Positions 50,178 through 59,945 of a stretch of 64,000 nucleotides of DNA are shown in pieces. The DNA lies in the NCBI GenBank assembly GCA_015056655.1, contig SVFV01000002.1:62001-126000 (forward strand), read 5' to 3'. Position 1 is the stretch's first letter. Each line of letters starts with the position of its first letter. This DNA comes from Butyrivibrio sp. (lineage in GTDB: Bacteria > Bacillota > Clostridia > Lachnospirales > Lachnospiraceae). The notes under the pieces were generated by a model. It was given only the letters and a program-made list of their open reading frames with translations, was not told where the DNA came from and made no database searches. Both the position numbers and the translations under genes were made by a program.

Positions 50178-50849
50178 TTAAAATCCGAAATTATCCAGGC
50201 TGAACTCCTTGCCGGTTCTGTCTTCATAAATTTCATCAAAATCTTTTCCCTGATCCTTTGGATCAAAATCCACATCCTTCGCATGAGACTTCATAGCATT
50301 ATCATCTGGCAATATCTCATAAGCTATATTGTGCTGAAGCCATTCATACGCCATATCTTCCGCTGTTCTATACGACGCCATGTCACTGCCATGAATAGGG
50401 TGCTCATCAATGAGCGCCTGGCAGATTATATAGTTATCATCGACATTTGTAATCTTGTAGGAATCTAATATTTTCCAATTGTCCTCCGTGTAAATAGCGG
50501 AGAATTCCTCATCCCCATAGGTGAAGGTATAGTGTTTACCATCTCCTGTATCTGTAAGATTAACATCCTCAGTAGATGAAAGAAGTCCCTGTCCTTCTTC
50601 GCGGGCTTGAACCTCGTCAATAAGCTCATCAAAATCTGTCGATTCCGCCTTATCATTCACAAAATCTTTAAGCTCATCCTTGGCCACAGAGGCTTTACCA
50701 TCTTTTATATTAGAAACCGTTTCCTTGACCTCTGAGAGGGTTTCTTTGCTGCTTTTTAGCGAATCCTTTATCTCAGATACTTCACTGCATGCAGCAAGCA
50801 TAAAAACGGCCATAATAGCCAAAATCACGCTAGTAATTCCTTTTTTCAA
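50178..50849 (-). CDS. Lipoprotein of unknown function
   Basis: 223 residues. The start is TTG at 50849, overlapping the stop of the esterase gene as TTGA; GGAGTTGG is upstream. The lipobox is FMLAAC. After it comes a coiled-coil-like region (EVSEIKDSLKSSKETLSEVK). Then a small alpha/beta domain (YTFTYGDEEFSAIYTEDNWKILDSY) and a tail (DQGKDFDEIYEDRTG) follow. No family recognised. Translational coupling to the CE2-like gene suggests they are made together. Confidence 0.8.
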   Translation of the reverse strand: MKKGITSVILAIMAVFMLAACSEVSEIKDSLKSSKETLSEVKETVSNIKDGKASVAKDELKDFVNDKAESTDFDELIDEVQAREEGQGLLSSTEDVNLTDTGDGKHYTFTYGDEEFSAIYTEDNWKILDSYKITNVDDNYIICQALIDEHPIHGSDMASYRTAEDMAYEWLQHNIAYEILPDDNAMKSHAKDVDFDPKDQGKDFDEIYEDRTGKEFSLDNFGF

Positions 50850-51994
50850 AATCCCAACTCCTTAATTTTTTTCACAAGACGTTCCGATGCATTCTTGTGT
50901 GACTTATGTCCCGGGTGGCTTCTTGATCCAAAACCATCTCCTTCAGTAGCTTGAAGCTGCACATAATATGCGTTGGTATCACCGGATTTTGCAACATATT
51001 CTTCAACTGCGCCAGAGAGAATCTCTCTCATCTGCTGGTCTATGTGCTCTGCCTCCTGTCCCAGCATTCCATAAGCCCATATTATCTTTGCATTTGGGTT
51101 TTTCTCCCTTATAAGTGTTATAAAGTTAACTGCTGATTTCTTTAAAAACTCAATATCTTTTGCAGGAATAAAGCCCTTTTCATCGCGGTTATGATCATTG
51201 TTAAAATTCATCTGCTCCGCGTTTAAATGCCCGTTATCTGTGTATGCTCCGACATCATTCGTGCCAAGATTAACAACTACCACATCAGGCCTAAAGCCAT
51301 TAAAATCCCATTTTTCATGGAATCCGTTATCTTTTGCCATATCTCCTGGAACTATGCCACAAATCTGCTCATAGTAAAGAGGCATGCGCTCCATGGGGTT
51401 TCCATACCATGACCAGCAAAAGCCCCATCCACTCTGGCTATACACGTTATAATCAGCCTTTAACGCACTTGCTGTCATATACGCATAATTATCTACTACA
51501 TCAAAGCATGAACTGTTCCAGTCCATCTCATCATGGGGGCCTATTCCGCCCTCTCCTGATGTAATACTGTCACCAATAAACTCGATTCTCATTGCAGGTT
51601 CGCCAATTTCCTCAAAGGTTCCATCAGCAAATATCGCCTCAATTTGAATCATAGTCTTCTGATCTCCGGGCATAGCCGGTGTATCTCGAATTATTCTGAT
51701 ATTTCTTACAGGTGCTTCCATTCCTGCAGCTGTTTCTGTACTGTTCCAGATAGTAATCTCATGAACGCCCTTTTCAAGAGGTCTCTTCTGATAGCGAACA
51801 CCATTTACGATCACGCTAATCCAGGGCTCAAATACGTTGTAATCTGCTTTGTATCTGATTCTAAGAGCACTACCCTTATAGTTCATCTCTATGCCTGATG
51901 CCGTCCAGAGTAATGAAAGCGGATCCTTTTTACCAGTCGTTCTCCCATGAATCTTAATGTTTTCTATGTCTGATATTTTGTATTCTTTAAGCAT
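50846..51994 (-). CDS. CE2-like SGNH/GDSL esterase with N-terminal beta-sandwich
   Basis: 382 residues. The ATG at 51994 has GGAGGTAGGAA upstream; a GTG at 52012 is weaker. Residues 1-135 form a jelly-roll (MNYKGSALRIRYKADYNVF, VNGVRYQKRPLEKGVHEI). The SGNH domain carries the Ser in IEFIGDSITSGEGG, Gly and Asn in NLGTNDVG and the His in SHPGHKSHKNAS. This is the CE2 acetyl-xylan-esterase plan, like Est2A of Butyrivibrio. No signal peptide, so likely cytosolic deacetylation of oligosaccharides. It is distant from the xylan cluster here. Confidence 0.85.
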   Translation of the reverse strand: MLKEYKISDIENIKIHGRTTGKKDPLSLLWTASGIEMNYKGSALRIRYKADYNVFEPWISVIVNGVRYQKRPLEKGVHEITIWNSTETAAGMEAPVRNIRIIRDTPAMPGDQKTMIQIEAIFADGTFEEIGEPAMRIEFIGDSITSGEGGIGPHDEMDWNSSCFDVVDNYAYMTASALKADYNVYSQSGWGFCWSWYGNPMERMPLYYEQICGIVPGDMAKDNGFHEKWDFNGFRPDVVVVNLGTNDVGAYTDNGHLNAEQMNFNNDHNRDEKGFIPAKDIEFLKKSAVNFITLIREKNPNAKIIWAYGMLGQEAEHIDQQMREILSGAVEEYVAKSGDTNAYYVQLQATEGDGFGSRSHPGHKSHKNASERLVKKIKELGF

Positions 51995-52111
51995 TTTCCT
52001 ACCTCCAAGCACATTTATAATGATTTTAATATCATATAGGAAAATATTAAAGCCTTAATTTTTGATGTCTATACATCATAACATCATGTTGTGCTAACAT
52101 CAAAATGAATC

Positions 52112-54592
52112 TTATCTATTTAAGCTTTCCAGAATTTTCTTTTCGTACTTTTTCTGAAGGCGCATTGTCTGCTCTACAATATCATTTTCATCATCAAAAT
52201 AACTGATATATCCCTGCAAAGACTGAGCCTTCTGCTGGAGTGTCTTTGAATGGCTCCAGATCAGGATCGCGGATTTTCCCTTTCCATTCTTTGCCTCCTG
52301 AATCAGATTGGCAGCTGCACTATTTCCATCGAAAGCAACAACAAGGGACGGACGTCTCTCGAATATTTCGTAGTTAAAGCTCTTATAGATTCCCATGCCC
52401 TCAGCTTCTGTAGAAACACGAATACTAACCCCTGCATTTTTGAGCTTTGCGCTCTCCTTTTTGGATATGAGCGAAGGAACAACAGAATAAATCCTAAATC
52501 CCTTCTCATTGTGCTCCAATAGATATTTCTCGTAGCCTGAAAGCTTATAGCCAATAACAAAAACCACTTCATCCGGATTAAGGTAATCAAGCAGAGCGTC
52601 CATTTGCTTAGCGCCTTCAGCTGTCACTCTGGTTGACCTGCTCTCGGTATTAAAGCTTCCACCAAGCAATACAACCGGGAATCTGTCCCAAGGAAGCTCT
52701 CTTATCTGATCCTTAAGCTCCTCGTTAGTATCCATCTTTTTAACGCCAGCGCCCACGCTCTTGGATATCTTAACTGTCTTCATTTTTTCAAGGAGGACCT
52801 CTCCCATGTCACGCCCCTTAAGCATTGCATAAAACGCTGCCTTCTTTTCTGAATAGGCGGCCTGGTTACTCTCGATAATTCCACTCTCTGCTTCCTTCAT
52901 CTGACGTAGTTCATCCTCAGTAAGGTCCAGCATTTTTGCAAGAGATAACTGTTCATCAATTGAGCCCGTGCCATATAAAGCAGCTCCGTCAGTACCCTGA
53001 ACACAGCGGATACCATGCTTTAAATAGTACTTTAGAGGGTGATTTTCCAGTGAATTGAGGTTGTTCAGGCGAACATTACTTGTAATCTGGAACTCCAGCA
53101 CCACATTGTTTTCTTTTAACTGCTTCAGCACCTCTTTTCCCTTTTTCGATCTGGGAGAATAGGAGTAAAGGCCATGCCCCAGTCTCATCTGTGGCATAGG
53201 CTGACCAGGCAAAAGAAAGTCCTTAACACAGGCTATACTATGAGCTATATTGTCCTTCTGGCTGTCATTTTCGCCTGCATGTACACGGATTACAAATGAA
53301 GGGTCTATAGCAGCAAACTTTACAAGTTCCTTAAATACAGGACGTAAAGTAATGATATCGTTGATTTCTTCTCCTACAAAGTCGCAGCCAGCCACATAAG
53401 GATCAAGGAAAGTGGCACGAAGAACCTCAAGGTTCTGTTCAAGATAATTCGAAGGCGTAACCGCATCTTTTACGATAGTCAATGGAATTCTTCGAATCGC
53501 AGCCAGGAACCTTATCATTACACCCGTTTCCTGGTAGATTTTGGGCATGACATCATGTACCTGTCTGAGCATTTCTATGGATTCATATTTTTTGACTAGT
53601 GTAGTATCACTTATCTCAGCGTAGCAAACTCCCTGCCTTTTATAATTTCTGGCAATCCACAGGAGCTTATCCTGGAAAATGGTATTATTGCAGTAATCTG
53701 CGCTCTCTTTGTCCCTGAGCATCTGCTTCAATGTGTTTTTGACATCTTCGTCAGGAATCTGATTTATGCTGTGAAGCTCTATCTTTTCCTCACTTTCTAC
53801 ACCTTTTGCAAAAACATATCGATAGAGATAAACCTTCTCAAGATTTGTGAAAACCGCCTGTCCATCCTTTATAACAGCCAGTGAACCTCGTATTTTCACT
53901 ATATTCATCTCTGCATTATCGAGATTATTTAAAATTAAATCCGCAAAATTAATAAATGTATTATCGTTAATTCGTCTATCGAGATATTTTCCCTTTAACT
54001 GTGAGGATACAAACTGTCTGGCAACCTTCTCTCGCTGGGCATTTACCTTTTCCCATTGCTCATCAGTGAGCTTTAAATCCAGCTTTTTAACATAATAAAG
54101 TGGATACCTTATCTGATGATATATTCCAAGAGCGATCAGTATATCTCCCGGAAGATTTCCATTCATGTGCGTATGCAGATCAGCTCTGAATTTAAGATCC
54201 TTTTTTACGAAAGTTTTGAAAATTGTTTTTGATAAATCCAGCTTATAATCCTTTGTCTGGCTCATTAAAGTCTTGGCAATAGCCGGAATTGCTGCCTTCA
54301 TCTCTACTTTGCCATCAGGATAAATATTTGCGACATCTATGTCACCCAGCCTGAAAACATAAATGTCATTGTTGTCCGCATCAACAAAACAAGGCACCTC
54401 GCCCTTTATGACAAGCATGCCTTCTTCATTTTCTGAAATGGGAAGATTACATATCTTCGCCAGATTCCTTATTAAGTTCCCTGTGTGATGGTTTGGTGTT
54501 GAGAGCACATAATACAGCCTCTCCAAATCCTTGAAGAGACTGACTATCATATCCTTTTCTGTGTCTAGAAAAAAGCTTGTAAAATAGGTCAT
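52112..54592 (-). CDS. Adenosine-deaminase-like protein with C-terminal SLOG-like nucleotide-binding domain
   Basis: About 826 residues, more than twice a normal deaminase. I chose the ATG at 54592 with GGAAGG upstream. Residues 1-125 are not recognised. Residues 135-600 carry the amidohydrolase metal and catalytic motifs in order: RADLHTHMNG (His-X-His), VRVHAGE as VIRVHAGEND, LGHGLYSYSP, EFQITSNVRLNN and CVQGTDGAALYGTG. The usual Asp-Asp is Asp-Gly here. From about 615, VVLLGGSFNTESRSTRVTAEGA, VVPSLISKKESAKLK, EGMGIYKSFNYEIFERRPSL and VVAFDGNSAAANLI resemble a SLOG (DprA/LOG-like) Rossmann domain. It ends an operon with MgtC and the permease-kinase. Deamination of an adenine nucleoside or nucleotide is likely; the exact substrate and the sensory role are inference. 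Confidence 0.75.
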   Translation of the reverse strand: MTYFTSFFLDTEKDMIVSLFKDLERLYYVLSTPNHHTGNLIRNLAKICNLPISENEEGMLVIKGEVPCFVDADNNDIYVFRLGDIDVANIYPDGKVEMKAAIPAIAKTLMSQTKDYKLDLSKTIFKTFVKKDLKFRADLHTHMNGNLPGDILIALGIYHQIRYPLYYVKKLDLKLTDEQWEKVNAQREKVARQFVSSQLKGKYLDRRINDNTFINFADLILNNLDNAEMNIVKIRGSLAVIKDGQAVFTNLEKVYLYRYVFAKGVESEEKIELHSINQIPDEDVKNTLKQMLRDKESADYCNNTIFQDKLLWIARNYKRQGVCYAEISDTTLVKKYESIEMLRQVHDVMPKIYQETGVMIRFLAAIRRIPLTIVKDAVTPSNYLEQNLEVLRATFLDPYVAGCDFVGEEINDIITLRPVFKELVKFAAIDPSFVIRVHAGENDSQKDNIAHSIACVKDFLLPGQPMPQMRLGHGLYSYSPRSKKGKEVLKQLKENNVVLEFQITSNVRLNNLNSLENHPLKYYLKHGIRCVQGTDGAALYGTGSIDEQLSLAKMLDLTEDELRQMKEAESGIIESNQAAYSEKKAAFYAMLKGRDMGEVLLEKMKTVKISKSVGAGVKKMDTNEELKDQIRELPWDRFPVVLLGGSFNTESRSTRVTAEGAKQMDALLDYLNPDEVVFVIGYKLSGYEKYLLEHNEKGFRIYSVVPSLISKKESAKLKNAGVSIRVSTEAEGMGIYKSFNYEIFERRPSLVVAFDGNSAAANLIQEAKNGKGKSAILIWSHSKTLQQKAQSLQGYISYFDDENDIVEQTMRLQKKYEKKILESLNR

Positions 54593-54607
54593 TGCGCAAC
54601 CTTCCAT

Positions 54608-55300
54608 TTAAATTTCTTCAACGTAGTTTACAAATTCCTGCTCACTAAGGAAGGTAATTACCTCCCTGTGAGGTCTGTTTTTATCAAGATCCACATCAAT
54701 AATAATTGCCACATCCGAAGGCTGCAGGGTTTTTTCCTTGCTCTTGGATATACTGCTGATGCTATATCCCATGCCATTGATGCATCTGCTAAGCCTGCCA
54801 ACTCCGCCTTCCTTGTCCACCTCGACATATATGCTCATATATTTGCTGTGTTCTTCAACTGCTGTACTTACATGCATCAGAGCCACATTTGCAATCATTA
54901 TTAAGATAAAACAAACTGTTCCTATCATCAGATAGCCGCCGCCGAGAGCCATTCCCATGCAGGCAGTAACCCATAATGATGCAGCTGTCGTAAGTCCTTT
55001 TATCTGCTTTCTACCAGTGACAAGTATTGTTCCAGCTCCCAGAAAGCCTATTCCACTGACTACGCCTGCGGGAATTCTGCTGACATCAGCGTTCATTCCA
55101 GGAATCTGAGCCAGATATATGTTAAGAGCTGTTGCCACCGCTGAACCCAGACTTACCAGAGCAAAGGTCTTAATTCCTGCACTGTGCTTTGTATAAATCC
55201 TCTCCCATCCGACAAGGCTTCCAAAAACAAGTGCAAGAACAAGTCTTAATGCCACCGCTATATCATTTGAACTATCCAAAAAATCCAGTAATCCTATCAT
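54608..55300 (-). CDS. MgtC/SapB-family membrane protein
   Basis: 230 residues. The start at 55300 overlaps the kinase stop as ATGA. Four to five helices are followed by a cytosolic ACT-like C-terminal domain (MSIYVEVDKEGGVGRLSRCI). Diagnostic blocks are LVLALVFGSLVGWERIYTKHSAGIKTFALVSLGSA and GIGFLGAGTILVTG. MgtC proteins inhibit the F-type ATP synthase and affect Mg2+ and phosphate homeostasis in Salmonella. Placement between a polyphosphate-related gene cluster member and a deaminase is in line with an adenylate/phosphate balance role; that is inference. Confidence 0.9.
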   Translation of the reverse strand: MIGLLDFLDSSNDIAVALRLVLALVFGSLVGWERIYTKHSAGIKTFALVSLGSAVATALNIYLAQIPGMNADVSRIPAGVVSGIGFLGAGTILVTGRKQIKGLTTAASLWVTACMGMALGGGYLMIGTVCFILIMIANVALMHVSTAVEEHSKYMSIYVEVDKEGGVGRLSRCINGMGYSISSISKSKEKTLQPSDVAIIIDVDLDKNRPHREVITFLSEQEFVNYVEEI

Positions 55301-58233
55301 TCTTCCTCCCACAGTAGAACTTCGGTTATAGTATCCATCATTGTCCTCGGGTCTATGGGCTTTGCAATATGAGCATCCATTCCTGCATCATGAGCATGCT
55401 GAACGTCCTCGGAAAATGCATTGGCCGTCATGGCGATTATTGGCGTTTTACGGCCCCTTTCTTCATCAAGCTGACGAATTGCCTTAGTGGCATCATAACC
55501 GTTCATTACGGGCATCTGAATGTCCATAAGAACTAAATCATAATAGCCTGGCATAGATTCCTTAACCTTATCAACTGCTTCCTGACCATTCTCTGCAGTA
55601 TCAACCATGAATCCCTGCCTTTTAAGTAACCTGGCAGCAATCTCGCGGTTTACCTCTATATCCTCAGTCAGGAGCACTCTCTTAGTCCTAAAGTCTATAA
55701 CACTTTCTCCGGAACTTCCACCCTCAGCTTCTTTGTATGCCTTATGAAGATCACCAAGCGGAAGCGAAACGTTTATAACGAATATCGTTCCCTCACCAGG
55801 GGCAGTTATAACATTGATCCGTCCACCCATGAGGTCAACTATGTTCTTTGTTATGGCCATTCCAAGGCCAGTGCCCTGAATTCCACTGACTGTACTGGTC
55901 CGCTCTCTCTCGAAAGCCTCAAATACCTTTTCAGCGAACTCCCTGGACATACCAATTCCGCTATCACTTACCCTGATCTCATAATCCGCCTGCCCATTAT
56001 GAGCAACGCCCTTTTGTTTTACGCTTACATTAACCTCTCCACCCTCAGGTGTGAACTTATATGCATTACTTATGAGATTTAATAACATGCGGTTGTAGTG
56101 GCTTTTATCGAGCATTACTACTCTGTCTTTAATGTCGATACAGTCCACAATGAAAGTGATTTTCTTTTCCTGCATCTGTGTCACAAAAAGATCTTTTACA
56201 GAATTTGTCAGATGAACAATATCTGCATCTTCCTTTGCCAGCTCAATTCTTCCATTCTCAATTCTGCTCATTTCCAGAATGTCATTTATAAGCTCCAGTA
56301 AATGCTTACTTGAATCTTCTATCTTATTCATGCATTCCTTCATTTCAGGAAGCGTAATATCCTCTTTTTTCGATAAATTGACATATCCCATGATGGCATT
56401 CATAGGTGTACGGATGTCGTGGGACATATTTGATAAAAAGGTGGTCTTAGCCTTGCTATTTTCCTCAGCCTTGATTTTTTCGCTGACTATTTTCTTTTCG
56501 CGCTTCTGCAAATGAGCATATACGTTAAAGAAAATGGCAATAGCTCCAAGAATAAGGGTCATTTGTATGATCGAGTTGCTTAAAAGAATATCGCTGACCT
56601 TATCAACGTCCATCGCTAAAACAGCATCTTCTTCCTTAATATTTCTTTCCTCTATTGGAATACCAAGCTCGCTCATCTCCTGACTATAATATTGTGTAAT
56701 ATCAGTCAAAAGGCTCTCTACATGGCTATGAGTTGTTTGCCTTGTCCACATAAGGGAAGAAAAGAAAATGACGAATACCATTGCAATCCACATAATGGTC
56801 GATTTACCAAGCTTTTGTTCTTCATCTATAGAAAATACCCATCTGAAGAAAATAAAGCCCAGAATGCTCCATATTGCAAGAATAAGGTATGATTCTGCAG
56901 CCATGGCTGATAATAGCCACAGATTAGGTACAACAAGGAACATTCCAAAAAATAGCGATGCCACTATTCCCAGTCCACCTGTCATCTCATAGAAGCCAAT
57001 ACCCTCTCGTTTTGCCCTCTTGTACGCTGCAGCGGAAGTAAAGCCGTATGCTATTGTTGCACCGACTGTAGTCACGTCAACGATCCAGCCCGTTGCAGTT
57101 CTTCCGAAAAACGGAATTACACAGGATATAAGGAAAATAAACTGAATGGCATTTTGAGGAAGCCCTGTTTCTGTCAGCTCTGAAAATCTTTTAGGAAGCA
57201 TATTTTCCCTGGACATTGACACCATAAGGCGGCTTGCAGCAATCATGTTACCAATTATTCCTGTTAAAATAGCTGCGCCTAATACAAATCCAAGAAAAGC
57301 TATGCCAATATTTCCGGCACTTTTATGGACACCATAAAATATAGGAATACTGCTTAGTCCGACTTTATTTCCAAGATCTTTAAAGTACTCAAACCAGTTG
57401 CTATAACCCTCAGGATGGATGAAAACAGCGACGAATACCAGAAGGACATAGGCAAGAAAAATGGTTATCACCGTGAAAATCATTATTCCTGTGGTCTTTT
57501 TTTCCTCAAAATTGAAGCCCTCTACCGAATGTGAAACGGATTCAAATCCAATAAAAGCCCAGGGAACAAGCACTATAATATTGATTATTTGCGAAAAAAT
57601 CCCTTTTTCCGGAACGAATAAAGGCTCAATAGATGCCCCGCCCATAGCAGAGCTTGCATTAGATACAACAATATATATGACTATAATTCCAAGCATCAAT
57701 AATAGCGCCAGAATTATCTGCATATTCTCTGCAAGAAACTTCCTTTTAGCGCAAACAAGTGCACACAGCCAGAATACTGTTATTTCGAAAATTATCTCTC
57801 CGAAATATATTTCGTACCCAGCGATATTATAATGGAGCCCCACTTCAAAGAGGGTAACACCGCAGTTTCTAAATATCAGAGCCAGTGCTGTCATATTAGC
57901 CCAAGCAATGGCAACATAAGTCAGAATCAAAAACCAGGCGCTCAAAAAGCCATGATCATAACCAAATTCTTTACAGGTATAAATAAATGTACCACCTGCA
58001 TCAGGATAACAATGCATCAAATAGCGATAGTTCATGCCTATAATAAGCATTATCGCAGAACCTATCGCCAAACCAATTGCTGTACCTATTGGTCCAGCCA
58101 CAGGCATAAAGGTAGATCCGGGCATGATAAATGCTCCCCATCCGACACTACAGCCAAATGAGAGCGCCCACACACCAAGAGGTGATAAGTATTTGGTCAA
58201 ACCCTGTGCATGCTTCTCCTGGTTGTTCTCCAT
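55297..58233 (-). CDS. APC-family amino acid permease fused to a hybrid histidine kinase and receiver
   Basis: 978 residues in one uninterrupted frame. Residues 1-460 are an APC-superfamily transporter with 12 or so helices: LGVWALSFGCSVGWGAFIMPG, YPDAGGTFIYTCKEFG, PWAFIGFESVSHSVEGF and AASRLMVSMSRENMLPKRF. Then come two further helices around an extracellular segment (SLLTDITQYYSQEM). The kinase follows: phospho-acceptor His605 in NMSHDIRTPMNAI, N-box NRMLLNLISNAYKFT, G1 VSDSGIGMS, G2 GTGLGMAI. The receiver has Asp904 in LVLMDIQMPVMNG. The protein would sense or transport a solute and start a phosphorelay. A separate output regulator is not in the window. It is 42 bases behind the polyphosphate enzyme gene and overlaps MgtC. 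Confidence 0.93.
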   Translation of the reverse strand: MENNQEKHAQGLTKYLSPLGVWALSFGCSVGWGAFIMPGSTFMPVAGPIGTAIGLAIGSAIMLIIGMNYRYLMHCYPDAGGTFIYTCKEFGYDHGFLSAWFLILTYVAIAWANMTALALIFRNCGVTLFEVGLHYNIAGYEIYFGEIIFEITVFWLCALVCAKRKFLAENMQIILALLLMLGIIVIYIVVSNASSAMGGASIEPLFVPEKGIFSQIINIIVLVPWAFIGFESVSHSVEGFNFEEKKTTGIMIFTVITIFLAYVLLVFVAVFIHPEGYSNWFEYFKDLGNKVGLSSIPIFYGVHKSAGNIGIAFLGFVLGAAILTGIIGNMIAASRLMVSMSRENMLPKRFSELTETGLPQNAIQFIFLISCVIPFFGRTATGWIVDVTTVGATIAYGFTSAAAYKRAKREGIGFYEMTGGLGIVASLFFGMFLVVPNLWLLSAMAAESYLILAIWSILGFIFFRWVFSIDEEQKLGKSTIMWIAMVFVIFFSSLMWTRQTTHSHVESLLTDITQYYSQEMSELGIPIEERNIKEEDAVLAMDVDKVSDILLSNSIIQMTLILGAIAIFFNVYAHLQKREKKIVSEKIKAEENSKAKTTFLSNMSHDIRTPMNAIMGYVNLSKKEDITLPEMKECMNKIEDSSKHLLELINDILEMSRIENGRIELAKEDADIVHLTNSVKDLFVTQMQEKKITFIVDCIDIKDRVVMLDKSHYNRMLLNLISNAYKFTPEGGEVNVSVKQKGVAHNGQADYEIRVSDSGIGMSREFAEKVFEAFERERTSTVSGIQGTGLGMAITKNIVDLMGGRINVITAPGEGTIFVINVSLPLGDLHKAYKEAEGGSSGESVIDFRTKRVLLTEDIEVNREIAARLLKRQGFMVDTAENGQEAVDKVKESMPGYYDLVLMDIQMPVMNGYDATKAIRQLDEERGRKTPIIAMTANAFSEDVQHAHDAGMDAHIAKPIDPRTMMDTITEVLLWEEE

Positions 58234-58275
58234 AACAACCCCCTCGAAAAAAGTCTTATTTTAAGAAAACCGTCC

Positions 58276-59754
58276 TTATCTGTTCAGGGCAGCCTTCAAC
58301 TGTTCAATAACAATCCTTAAAGCCTTTATTCTTGCATATTTCTTATCTACAGACTCAAGGATGTACCAGGGAGCAAACTCTGTACTAGTCTTTGCGATCA
58401 TTTCATCGATAGCAGTTTCGTACTGATCCCACTTTTCTCTGTTTCTCCAATCCTCGTCCGTGATCTTCCACTGCTTTTCAGGTGTATTCTGTCTGTCAGT
58501 AAAGCGCTGAAGCTGCGTCTCATTATCTATCTGTACCCAGAACTTAATGATTACTGCTCCCCAGTCGCTAAGTTCCTTTTCGAACTCATTTATCTCGTTA
58601 TAGGCCCTCTGCCAGTCATTTTCCGAGCAAAATCCCTCTAGTCTCTCAACCATCACTCTTCCATACCAGGTTCTGTCAAAAATGGTGATATGACCAGTCT
58701 TTGGAAGCCTTGTCCAAAATCTCCACAGATAATGACGCGCCTTTTCGTGTGGTTCAGGACTTGCTATAGGCTCTACAACATAGTCTCTTGGATCAAGAGC
58801 AGCTGTTATTCTTTTGATATTTCCGCCTTTTCCTGCGGCATCCCATCCCTCATATGCGATAATTACTGGGATTTTCTTACGATATATCTTATTGTTCAAG
58901 TCTTTCAATTCTTTTTGTAGAACTTTAAGCTCGATTTCATATTCCTCATCCGTCATGGTTTTATCTGCAAGAGATATGTCCGAAAGCTTTCCTACCTTTT
59001 TAAGTGGGAAAGTATTTTGAAGAATCGGAACATTCATTGAATGATTTTTTAGGGCGGTATCAATTCCCTGATTAAGGAACTGAAGAACCTGTAACTCGGC
59101 CCACTTCTTCTCAGTGGCATCTATAATGTACCAGGGTGCTCTTGACTGGTTTGTATCGCTTAAATACCTGTCATAAACCTCCTGACATTTTTCGTAATGT
59201 TTATTCTGCAAAAGATCCTCTTTTTGTACTCTCCAGCTGGTATCCTTACTCTCCTGCAAAGCATCGAGGCGCTTTTTCTGTTCCTTTTTCGAGATATTGA
59301 AGAAGAACTTCACGACAAGGTATCCATTATCGCAGAGTTGCCTCTCAATTACGTTGATAGAATGCACTCTTTGCTCGTAGACTTCGTCGGTCAATTCTCC
59401 ATTCATTACGCCGTCCACGATCTCTTCCATCCAGCAGGTGTCGAAAAATCTGAACTTTCCAGCCTCCGGAATCTCCTTCATATATCTATATAAAAACGGA
59501 TAGCGCTTCTCTTCTTCATTTGGCTCTCTATCAAGAGTAGCTACTTTGAAGAATCTGGGATCGATATTTCTTATAACCTTGCCAATAATTGCCCCTTTTC
59601 CAGCGGCATTCCACCCCTCAAAGAGCACCATTACAGGAAGTGATGCTTCTTTTATCTTCATTTGGAAGGAAGATAGCTTTGCTCTTTCCTCCTTTAGCTT
59701 TTCAGAAATTTCTTTTTCATCCGGAAGATCGGTTTTAACAAAGTCCTTTAGCAT
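58276..59754 (-). CDS. pap: Polyphosphate:AMP phosphotransferase (two PPK2 domains)
   Basis: 492 residues. The ATG at 59754 has AAGGAGG eight bases upstream; the longer reading to 59790 lacks a site. Two PPK2 domains are in tandem, each with a Walker A loop: FEGWNAAGKGAIIGKVI near residue 50 and YEGWDAAGKGGNIKRI near residue 300. Each also has a lid and Walker B (FFDTCWME..; IFDRTWYGRVMVER). Two-domain PPK2 proteins, as in Acinetobacter, transfer phosphate from polyphosphate to AMP to give ADP. The gene is the first of the minus-strand cluster with the permease-kinase, MgtC and the deaminase-like gene. Confidence 0.93.
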   Translation of the reverse strand: MLKDFVKTDLPDEKEISEKLKEERAKLSSFQMKIKEASLPVMVLFEGWNAAGKGAIIGKVIRNIDPRFFKVATLDREPNEEEKRYPFLYRYMKEIPEAGKFRFFDTCWMEEIVDGVMNGELTDEVYEQRVHSINVIERQLCDNGYLVVKFFFNISKKEQKKRLDALQESKDTSWRVQKEDLLQNKHYEKCQEVYDRYLSDTNQSRAPWYIIDATEKKWAELQVLQFLNQGIDTALKNHSMNVPILQNTFPLKKVGKLSDISLADKTMTDEEYEIELKVLQKELKDLNNKIYRKKIPVIIAYEGWDAAGKGGNIKRITAALDPRDYVVEPIASPEPHEKARHYLWRFWTRLPKTGHITIFDRTWYGRVMVERLEGFCSENDWQRAYNEINEFEKELSDWGAVIIKFWVQIDNETQLQRFTDRQNTPEKQWKITDEDWRNREKWDQYETAIDEMIAKTSTEFAPWYILESVDKKYARIKALRIVIEQLKAALNR

Positions 59755-59913
59755 CAGAAATACCTCCTTAAAAGCGTTAATTAAGCGCATACTATCTGCA
59801 ATATAACCCTATTTCCATAATAGTATACAGGTATAACCTTTTCAGAAAATATTTGTAAATTTACAATGAAATGATTTATATTTCGATTCTATTTCAGCCT
59901 TAAAATAGACAAA

Positions 59914-59945
59914 AAAATTCCGGTGAGATAACCCACCGGAATTTT
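59914..59945 (-). terminator. Terminator of the LplABC-type operon
   Basis: AAATTCCGGTG and CACCGGAATTT form an 11-bp stem with a loop of about eight bases; A/T runs on both sides. It lies about 30 bases after the solute-binding protein stop. Confidence 0.88.

Follow-up and report, generated by a model that had tools for sequence, protein, structure and literature searches.

Four genes of differing histories in a local assembly of two Butyrivibrio-type genomes, with two candidate signaling fusions, a permease-kinase and an ADA-SLOG protein

In the present study, we analyzed a 64-kb window (G000:C5:62001-126000) of the 4.0-Mb genome, in 96 contigs, of a rumen-type bacterium, hereafter G000, in which four genes follow one another on the same strand. 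They encode a polyphosphate:AMP phosphotransferase (PAP), a hybrid histidine kinase fused to an APC permease, an MgtC family protein, and a protein that combines an adenosine deaminase (ADA) barrel with a predicted SLOG-type domain (ADA-SLOG), the nearest named relatives of which are from Butyrivibrio. We suggest, with a probability of approximately 0.53, that these genes constitute a lineage-specific operon, which formed at about the common ancestor of two related genomes of the Butyrivibrio type when four independently inherited genes were joined behind one promoter. The gene order, its limitation to two of 79 genomes, an upstream block common to both, and the differing histories of the genes speak for an operon, the members of which would be transcribed together and belong to a common growth state, probably a shortage of nutrients or energy. 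As a local assembly, the cluster is less important than the two unusual fusion families in it, the permease-kinase and ADA-SLOG, which look worth testing.

The genus survey comprised 79 genomes including G000, searched with each of the four proteins as a query. ADA was found in 57 genomes, PAP in 40, and MgtC in 62, distant matches down to E 7e-21 being counted for the last. The permease-kinase was found in 30, 27 of which hold the G000 type; G174, G180, and G185 gave partial matches only (34-38% identity) and were excluded from the 27, among which G194 matches only up to residue 796. All four genes are present in 19 genomes and adjacent in only two, G000 and G195. In each of the other 17, the listed coordinates assign the genes to separate contigs or leave a distance of 24 kb or more between them, the kinase and PAP of G135 coming closest. 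Among 87 fetched ADA loci (80 named and seven from family genomes; 86 distinct, L010 and L084 having the same sequence; full 10 kb upstream present for 57 of the 80 named loci), the other three genes were detected by tblastn (E 1e-8) in one, L026, which belongs to G195; additional matches to the kinase part in L012, L019, L022, and L027 (27-53% identity) were taken as unrelated kinases. The neighbors of ADA vary elsewhere: in a table of 84 loci, from which L016, L068, and L076 are missing, the commonest next gene recurs in six loci upstream and four downstream. One member of each neighbor cluster was scanned, and most neighbors had no assignment; those assigned included a Crp-type regulator, SpoU methylase and NUDIX proteins, and a YfbR-like 5'-deoxynucleotidase, the gene of which immediately precedes ADA in five of the 84 loci.

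The initial annotation had read the four genes as a single system by which the adenylate pool is adjusted to an amino acid or other solute outside the cell, and had proposed a genome-neighborhood search as a check. The family-level functions are compatible with this model and the spacing is operon-like; however, the set is limited to two genomes, the gene histories differ, ADA and MgtC occur without the others, and the neighbors of the kinase elsewhere are often HPt and REC-GGDEF genes, with PAP, MgtC, and ADA at none of 18 foreign kinase loci (13-20 kb fetched each). A conserved four-gene system is rejected by the genus-wide distribution and the ADA loci, and we regard the model as very improbable. 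The parts that survive are the intact set in two genomes and a possible link between PAP and the kinase.

The coordinates confirmed the three gaps first reported, of 42, -4 (an ATGA overlap), and 15 nucleotides. G195 (L216) keeps the same order with gaps of 23, -4, and 18, at amino acid identities to G000 of 91% for PAP, 75% for the kinase, 80% for MgtC, and 87% for ADA. The synonymous divergence (dS) is 2.8 for the kinase and 3.0 for MgtC, and the ratio of nonsynonymous to synonymous divergence (dN/dS) is 0.064 and 0.048, respectively; neither was calculable for PAP and ADA. Since the arrangement recurs in a genome pair with synonymous sites that are saturated or close to it, it is not an assembly accident. 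A 58-nt block 5' of PAP is common to both genomes (local alignment score of 91, reached by none of 200 shuffles). The 28 other PAP upstream regions scored 13-22, and for the nearest, those of G145, G136, and G137, their own scores were reached by 6, 7, and 9 of 200 shuffles, respectively; the block is not clearly common to any of the 28. It holds a promoter-like pair at 59845-59817, before PAP as the first gene, the start ATG of which has AAGGAGG in front. The pair is weak evidence by itself because the promoter scan found 24 sites versus 21.1 expected. The set being intact in G000 and G195 with a common upstream block, co-transcription in these genomes is plausible.

The individual gene trees differ. 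In the PAP tree, G000 and G195 are placed with G136 and G137 (support 0.975), in agreement with the rpoB tree, in which G000 groups with the same two genomes (0.998) and which covers 58 of the 79 genomes, the 21 without an rpoB match having been left out. The kinase groups with those of G159 and G695 of another genus (0.997), and MgtC with that of G144 (0.998), a second MgtC copy of G000 (G000:C63:34239-34919, 70% identical) being placed elsewhere. In the ADA tree, G000, G195, and G177 form one group (0.997). From these sequence comparisons, we conclude that the four genes represent a lineage-specific assembly, local to two genomes, of genes with differing histories.

The conserved partner of the kinase appears to be HPt, and not its operon neighbors. 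Among the 18 foreign kinase loci, two of which are the 35-36% paralogues of G000 and G195, 10 have REC-GGDEF and 7 have HPt no more than two genes away, these names resting on one Pfam-scanned member each and on clustering. The HPt gene of G000 is located at C85 (50% identical), and its REC-GGDEF homologues lie at C63, C28, and C5 (54, 46, and 42%). Across the genus, HPt is present in 26 of the 27 kinase genomes versus 7 of the 52 others (Pagel likelihood ratio [LR] 30.3, p 4e-6). PAP is also found in 25 of the 27 versus 15 of the 52 (Fisher 4e-8), the two genes not being neighbors, and on the rpoB tree in 20 of 20 versus 10 of 38 (Pagel LR 18.7-18.8, p 0.0009). The kinase showed no association with ADA (Fisher p 0.29; Pagel p 0.62) or MgtC (Fisher p 0.39; Pagel p 0.20). 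As a separate observation, the HPt proteins of G127, G171, G183, and G162 share 93-96% identity with the G144 protein. The kinases of G127 (L224) and G144 (L223) also group on very short branches in spite of the distance between these genomes on the rpoB tree, and together these findings may point to a recent cassette transfer.

These statistics suggest a narrower explanation, in which the permease-kinase and PAP form a functional pair, the phosphorelay controlling or depending on polyphosphate-driven ADP supply, with MgtC and ADA-SLOG as passengers. The genus-wide co-occurrence and the null results for the two control genes argue for it. However, ADA and MgtC were the sole controls, PAP is absent from the 13-20 kb fetched at each foreign kinase locus, larger genomes could hold both genes, and PAP and HPt also co-occur (Pagel p 0.004), which may be the same signal. 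The kinase changes six times by parsimony on the rpoB tree, and few events can inflate Pagel's test; because of this, and because genome size is outside the model, the co-occurrence is support, not proof. We consider such a pair rather unlikely as an explanation of the set.

Besides the small number of kinase changes, several points weigh against an operon. Synteny between G000 and G195 extends beyond the four genes, to sugar-ABC genes upstream and GDSL and lipoprotein genes downstream, so that the set may be held by plain synteny. The G000-G195 pair within the ADA tree has a support of 0.341, which does not place G195 closer to G000 than G177 is, and in the 18 kb fetched around it the ADA gene of G177 does not belong to a comparable set; G195 and G177 are also absent from the rpoB tree. 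Regarding the kinase, neither HPt nor REC-GGDEF lies within two genes in 8 of the 18 foreign loci, in two of which an EAL-GGDEF gene adjoins the kinase, and the HPt cut-off (E 1e-20) was chosen after the list had been seen. The ADA tree moved slight weight from the operon to chance adjacency, in which a rearrangement gathered genes without a common function that were then kept only via the regional synteny of two close species. The rarity of the set, the syntenic flanking genes, the lack of the arrangement in G177, a near relative by ADA, and the lack of co-occurrence of the kinase with ADA or MgtC all fit this explanation. It accounts less well for the close packing of the genes, including a 4-nt overlap that G000 and G195 both have despite their synonymous divergence, for the common upstream block, and for the genus-wide co-occurrence of the kinase and PAP. 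Chance adjacency is a substantial possibility, to which we assign a lower probability than to the operon.

If the four genes are an operon, PAP would convert AMP to ADP with polyphosphate in the shared growth state, and the APC transceptor would sense an extracellular amino acid-type solute. The signal may pass from the transceptor through its own receiver to the HPt encoded elsewhere (G000:C85), and from there to REC-GGDEF regulators acting through cyclic di-GMP. MgtC would work at the membrane, and ADA-SLOG may deaminate an adenine nucleoside or nucleotide under the control of a nucleotide ligand on its SLOG-type domain.

The permease-kinase matches AA_permease_2, AA_permease, HisKA, HATPase_c, and Response_reg above the Pfam cut-offs, and has the phosphoacceptor His605 and receiver Asp904 of a hybrid histidine kinase. 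Hydropathy indicates that a segment of two transmembrane (TM) helices at 479-567 links the permease and kinase parts. The two permease families were the sole transporter families at E 0.001, with no SLC5, and no STAC match was obtained at E 0.001 in the Pfam scan, the library of which was not checked for a STAC model. A second protein with the same domain set is encoded in G000 (G000:C78:42271-45141; L218:8260-11190; 35% identical). A search of 250 family genomes found the permease part in 19. Among the 28 matches listed, the surrounding frame has a length of 453-505 aa in five, as would fit a permease alone, and of at least 741 aa in 23. Eighteen fusion proteins were fetched, 17 from the permease search of family genomes and L345 from the genus kinase search, and 14 were domain-scanned, L328, L329, L332, and L335 being left out. 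They comprised seven histidine kinase (HK)-REC proteins, one of which, L334, has approximately 800 further residues without assignment, two HK proteins with two receivers, one GGDEF, one PAS-GGDEF, and three GGDEF-REC-EAL proteins. The Lachnospiraceae APC modules joined to GGDEF, PAS-GGDEF, or GGDEF-REC-EAL are L337, L338, L339, L344, and L345, and matches to GGDEF forms end at query residues 548-590, into or through the two-TM linker.

A transporter and a histidine kinase in one polypeptide are also found in CbrA and CrbS, SLC5-STAC histidine kinases described as "transceptors" (PMC13022988, PMC5715377, PMC9100948), and the logic of CbrA, as presented in the accessible parts of these sources, is resembled by the APC permease-kinase with another transporter family (PMC13022988, PMC11109136). 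Unlike CbrA and CrbS, the present protein has an APC permease instead of SLC5 and the two-TM segment where CbrA has STAC, and its permease module also occurs with GGDEF and EAL outputs. The ammonium-transporter sensor kinase of Kuenenia appears to be likewise a transporter-histidine kinase fusion, of a different transporter family (PMC5764959, in the part available). The available portions of the publications listed contain no description of APC-kinase fusions. Amino acid-type sensing in Lachnospiraceae of the gut and rumen would become open to direct tests through a family in which an APC permease serves as the signaling input and the outputs, be they kinase, GGDEF, or EAL, are interchangeable.

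ADA-SLOG was initially described as deaminase-like. The ADA fold covers only residues ~128-582 of its 826 aa, a limit that was not visible to the initial annotation; AlphaFold models and fold comparisons predict an N-terminal domain (1-127) without a family assignment, the ADA barrel, and a C-terminal SLOG-type fold at ~620-826. The RADAR deaminase RdrB is missing from the rows of the fold comparison, an absence that carries no evidential weight. The SLOG fold is common to DprA, LOG, Moco carrier, and TRPM N-terminal domains. The C-terminal part had no Pfam match in the three proteins scanned, and a profile search of the PDB with it (A4) gave three weak protein-kinase matches. The protein has the barrel fold and a PF00962 score of 62 bits, and falls short of the adenosine deaminase equivalog TIGR01430 (53.7 versus 216.55 bits). 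An alignment of 84 loci and the G000 sequence, from which L015 and L016 (two pieces of one genome) and L068 were excluded as incomplete, held 84 distinct sequences. H140, H142, H438, E441, H473, and D535 are invariant in all 84; the HxH, HAGE, GHG, and TD residues are presumably the metal ligands and catalytic Glu/His. Gly536, likewise in 84 of 84, aligns with the second Asp of TDD in solved ADAs, which the protein hence lacks and which we take to be Asp296 of mouse ADA, with a role in base recognition.

A related known architecture is Cad1 (CARF-ADA; PMC11645235, in the part available), in which CARF stands in place of the predicted C-terminal SLOG-type domain; the PADLOC model CARF_ADA matches only the ADA part (308-565), and ADA-SLOG has the extra N-terminal domain and a wide presence in one genus. 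A SLOG-type domain beside an effector is also found in the SIR2-SLOG protein ThsA, the SLOG domain of which is reported to bind a cyclic ADP-ribose signal (PMC12948488, as far as accessible), and in TRPM2; the effector in ADA-SLOG is the ADA barrel. By analogy with Cad1, an infection-made ligand might bind SLOG and turn on nucleotide deamination as an anti-phage response. We regard this as extremely unlikely given that ADA occurs in 57 of the 79 genomes with changing neighbors, the assigned ones being house-keeping genes, and that none of the 26 stretches matched in one pattern-based viral-contig scan was a confirmed relative. Within the searches made, to which a phage collection did not belong, transfer of ADA-SLOG on phages or plasmids gained no support; the seven matching plasmid records cover 17-33% of the query at 26-29% identity. 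A 27% identical relative (L247:871-3219) in a 1.2-Mb genome of another family is a useful outgroup.

The combination of an ADA barrel and a SLOG-type domain suggests nucleotide-ligand gating of purine deamination outside CRISPR defense. A broader proposal, which we put forward tentatively and at less than even odds, is that ADA-SLOG is a deaminase class outside CRISPR, gated by a SLOG-bound nucleotide such as ADP-ribose or an NAD-derived signal and altered in base recognition by Gly in place of Asp296, which places purine deamination under second-messenger control, and that the APC module acts in bacteria generally as an amino acid receptor domain, attached to kinases and cyclic di-GMP enzymes. 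The accessible parts of the publications listed do not describe ADA-SLOG fusions, and an earlier listing of the architecture may exist. A 2015 survey of nucleotide-centered conflict systems reportedly surveyed SLOG families.

The remaining assignments of the initial annotation were upheld. PAP exceeds the TIGR03708 cut-off (574.5 versus 547.65 bits) with two PPK2 stretches, as expected for a two-domain PPK2 polyphosphate:AMP phosphotransferase, and does not reach NF050016, another model of that name (392.3 of 800 bits). MgtC scores 119.2 versus 31.4 bits with PF02308 and does not reach the equivalog NF007431 (97.1 of 214 bits). Members of the MgtC family are known to inhibit ATP synthase.

Table 1. 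Positions in the window of the four genes and adjoining features.
Feature	Position	Strand	Basis
PAP, polyphosphate:AMP phosphotransferase, two PPK2 domains	58276..59754	minus	TIGR03708 above cut-off; PF03976, two stretches
APC permease - two-TM linker - HisKA - HATPase - receiver hybrid kinase (transceptor), 978 aa	55297..58233	minus	Pfam, motifs, hydropathy
MgtC family membrane protein, 230 aa	54608..55300	minus	PF02308; start overlaps kinase stop (ATGA)
ADA-SLOG protein, 826 aa	52112..54592	minus	PF00962, 62 bits; AlphaFold models, fold comparisons
Predicted SLOG-type domain of ADA-SLOG, residues 620-826	52112..52735	minus	Fold comparison
Upstream block common with G195, holding the promoter-like pair CTGAAA-17-TATTAT	59817..59874	minus	Local alignment
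Terminator-like hairpin ending the upstream sugar-ABC genes	59914..59945	minus	Hairpin

Rfam gave zero matches in the window at gathering thresholds. Downstream of ADA lies a GDSL/carbohydrate-esterase-2-like gene (50846-51997). In G195 this gene is found on the same side of ADA, from which three predicted frames separate it. In the window, it is followed by a lipoprotein-like gene (50178-50849) without a Pfam match, which by eye resembles the gene directly upstream of ADA in four other loci (cluster c4: L054, L055, L058, and L063).

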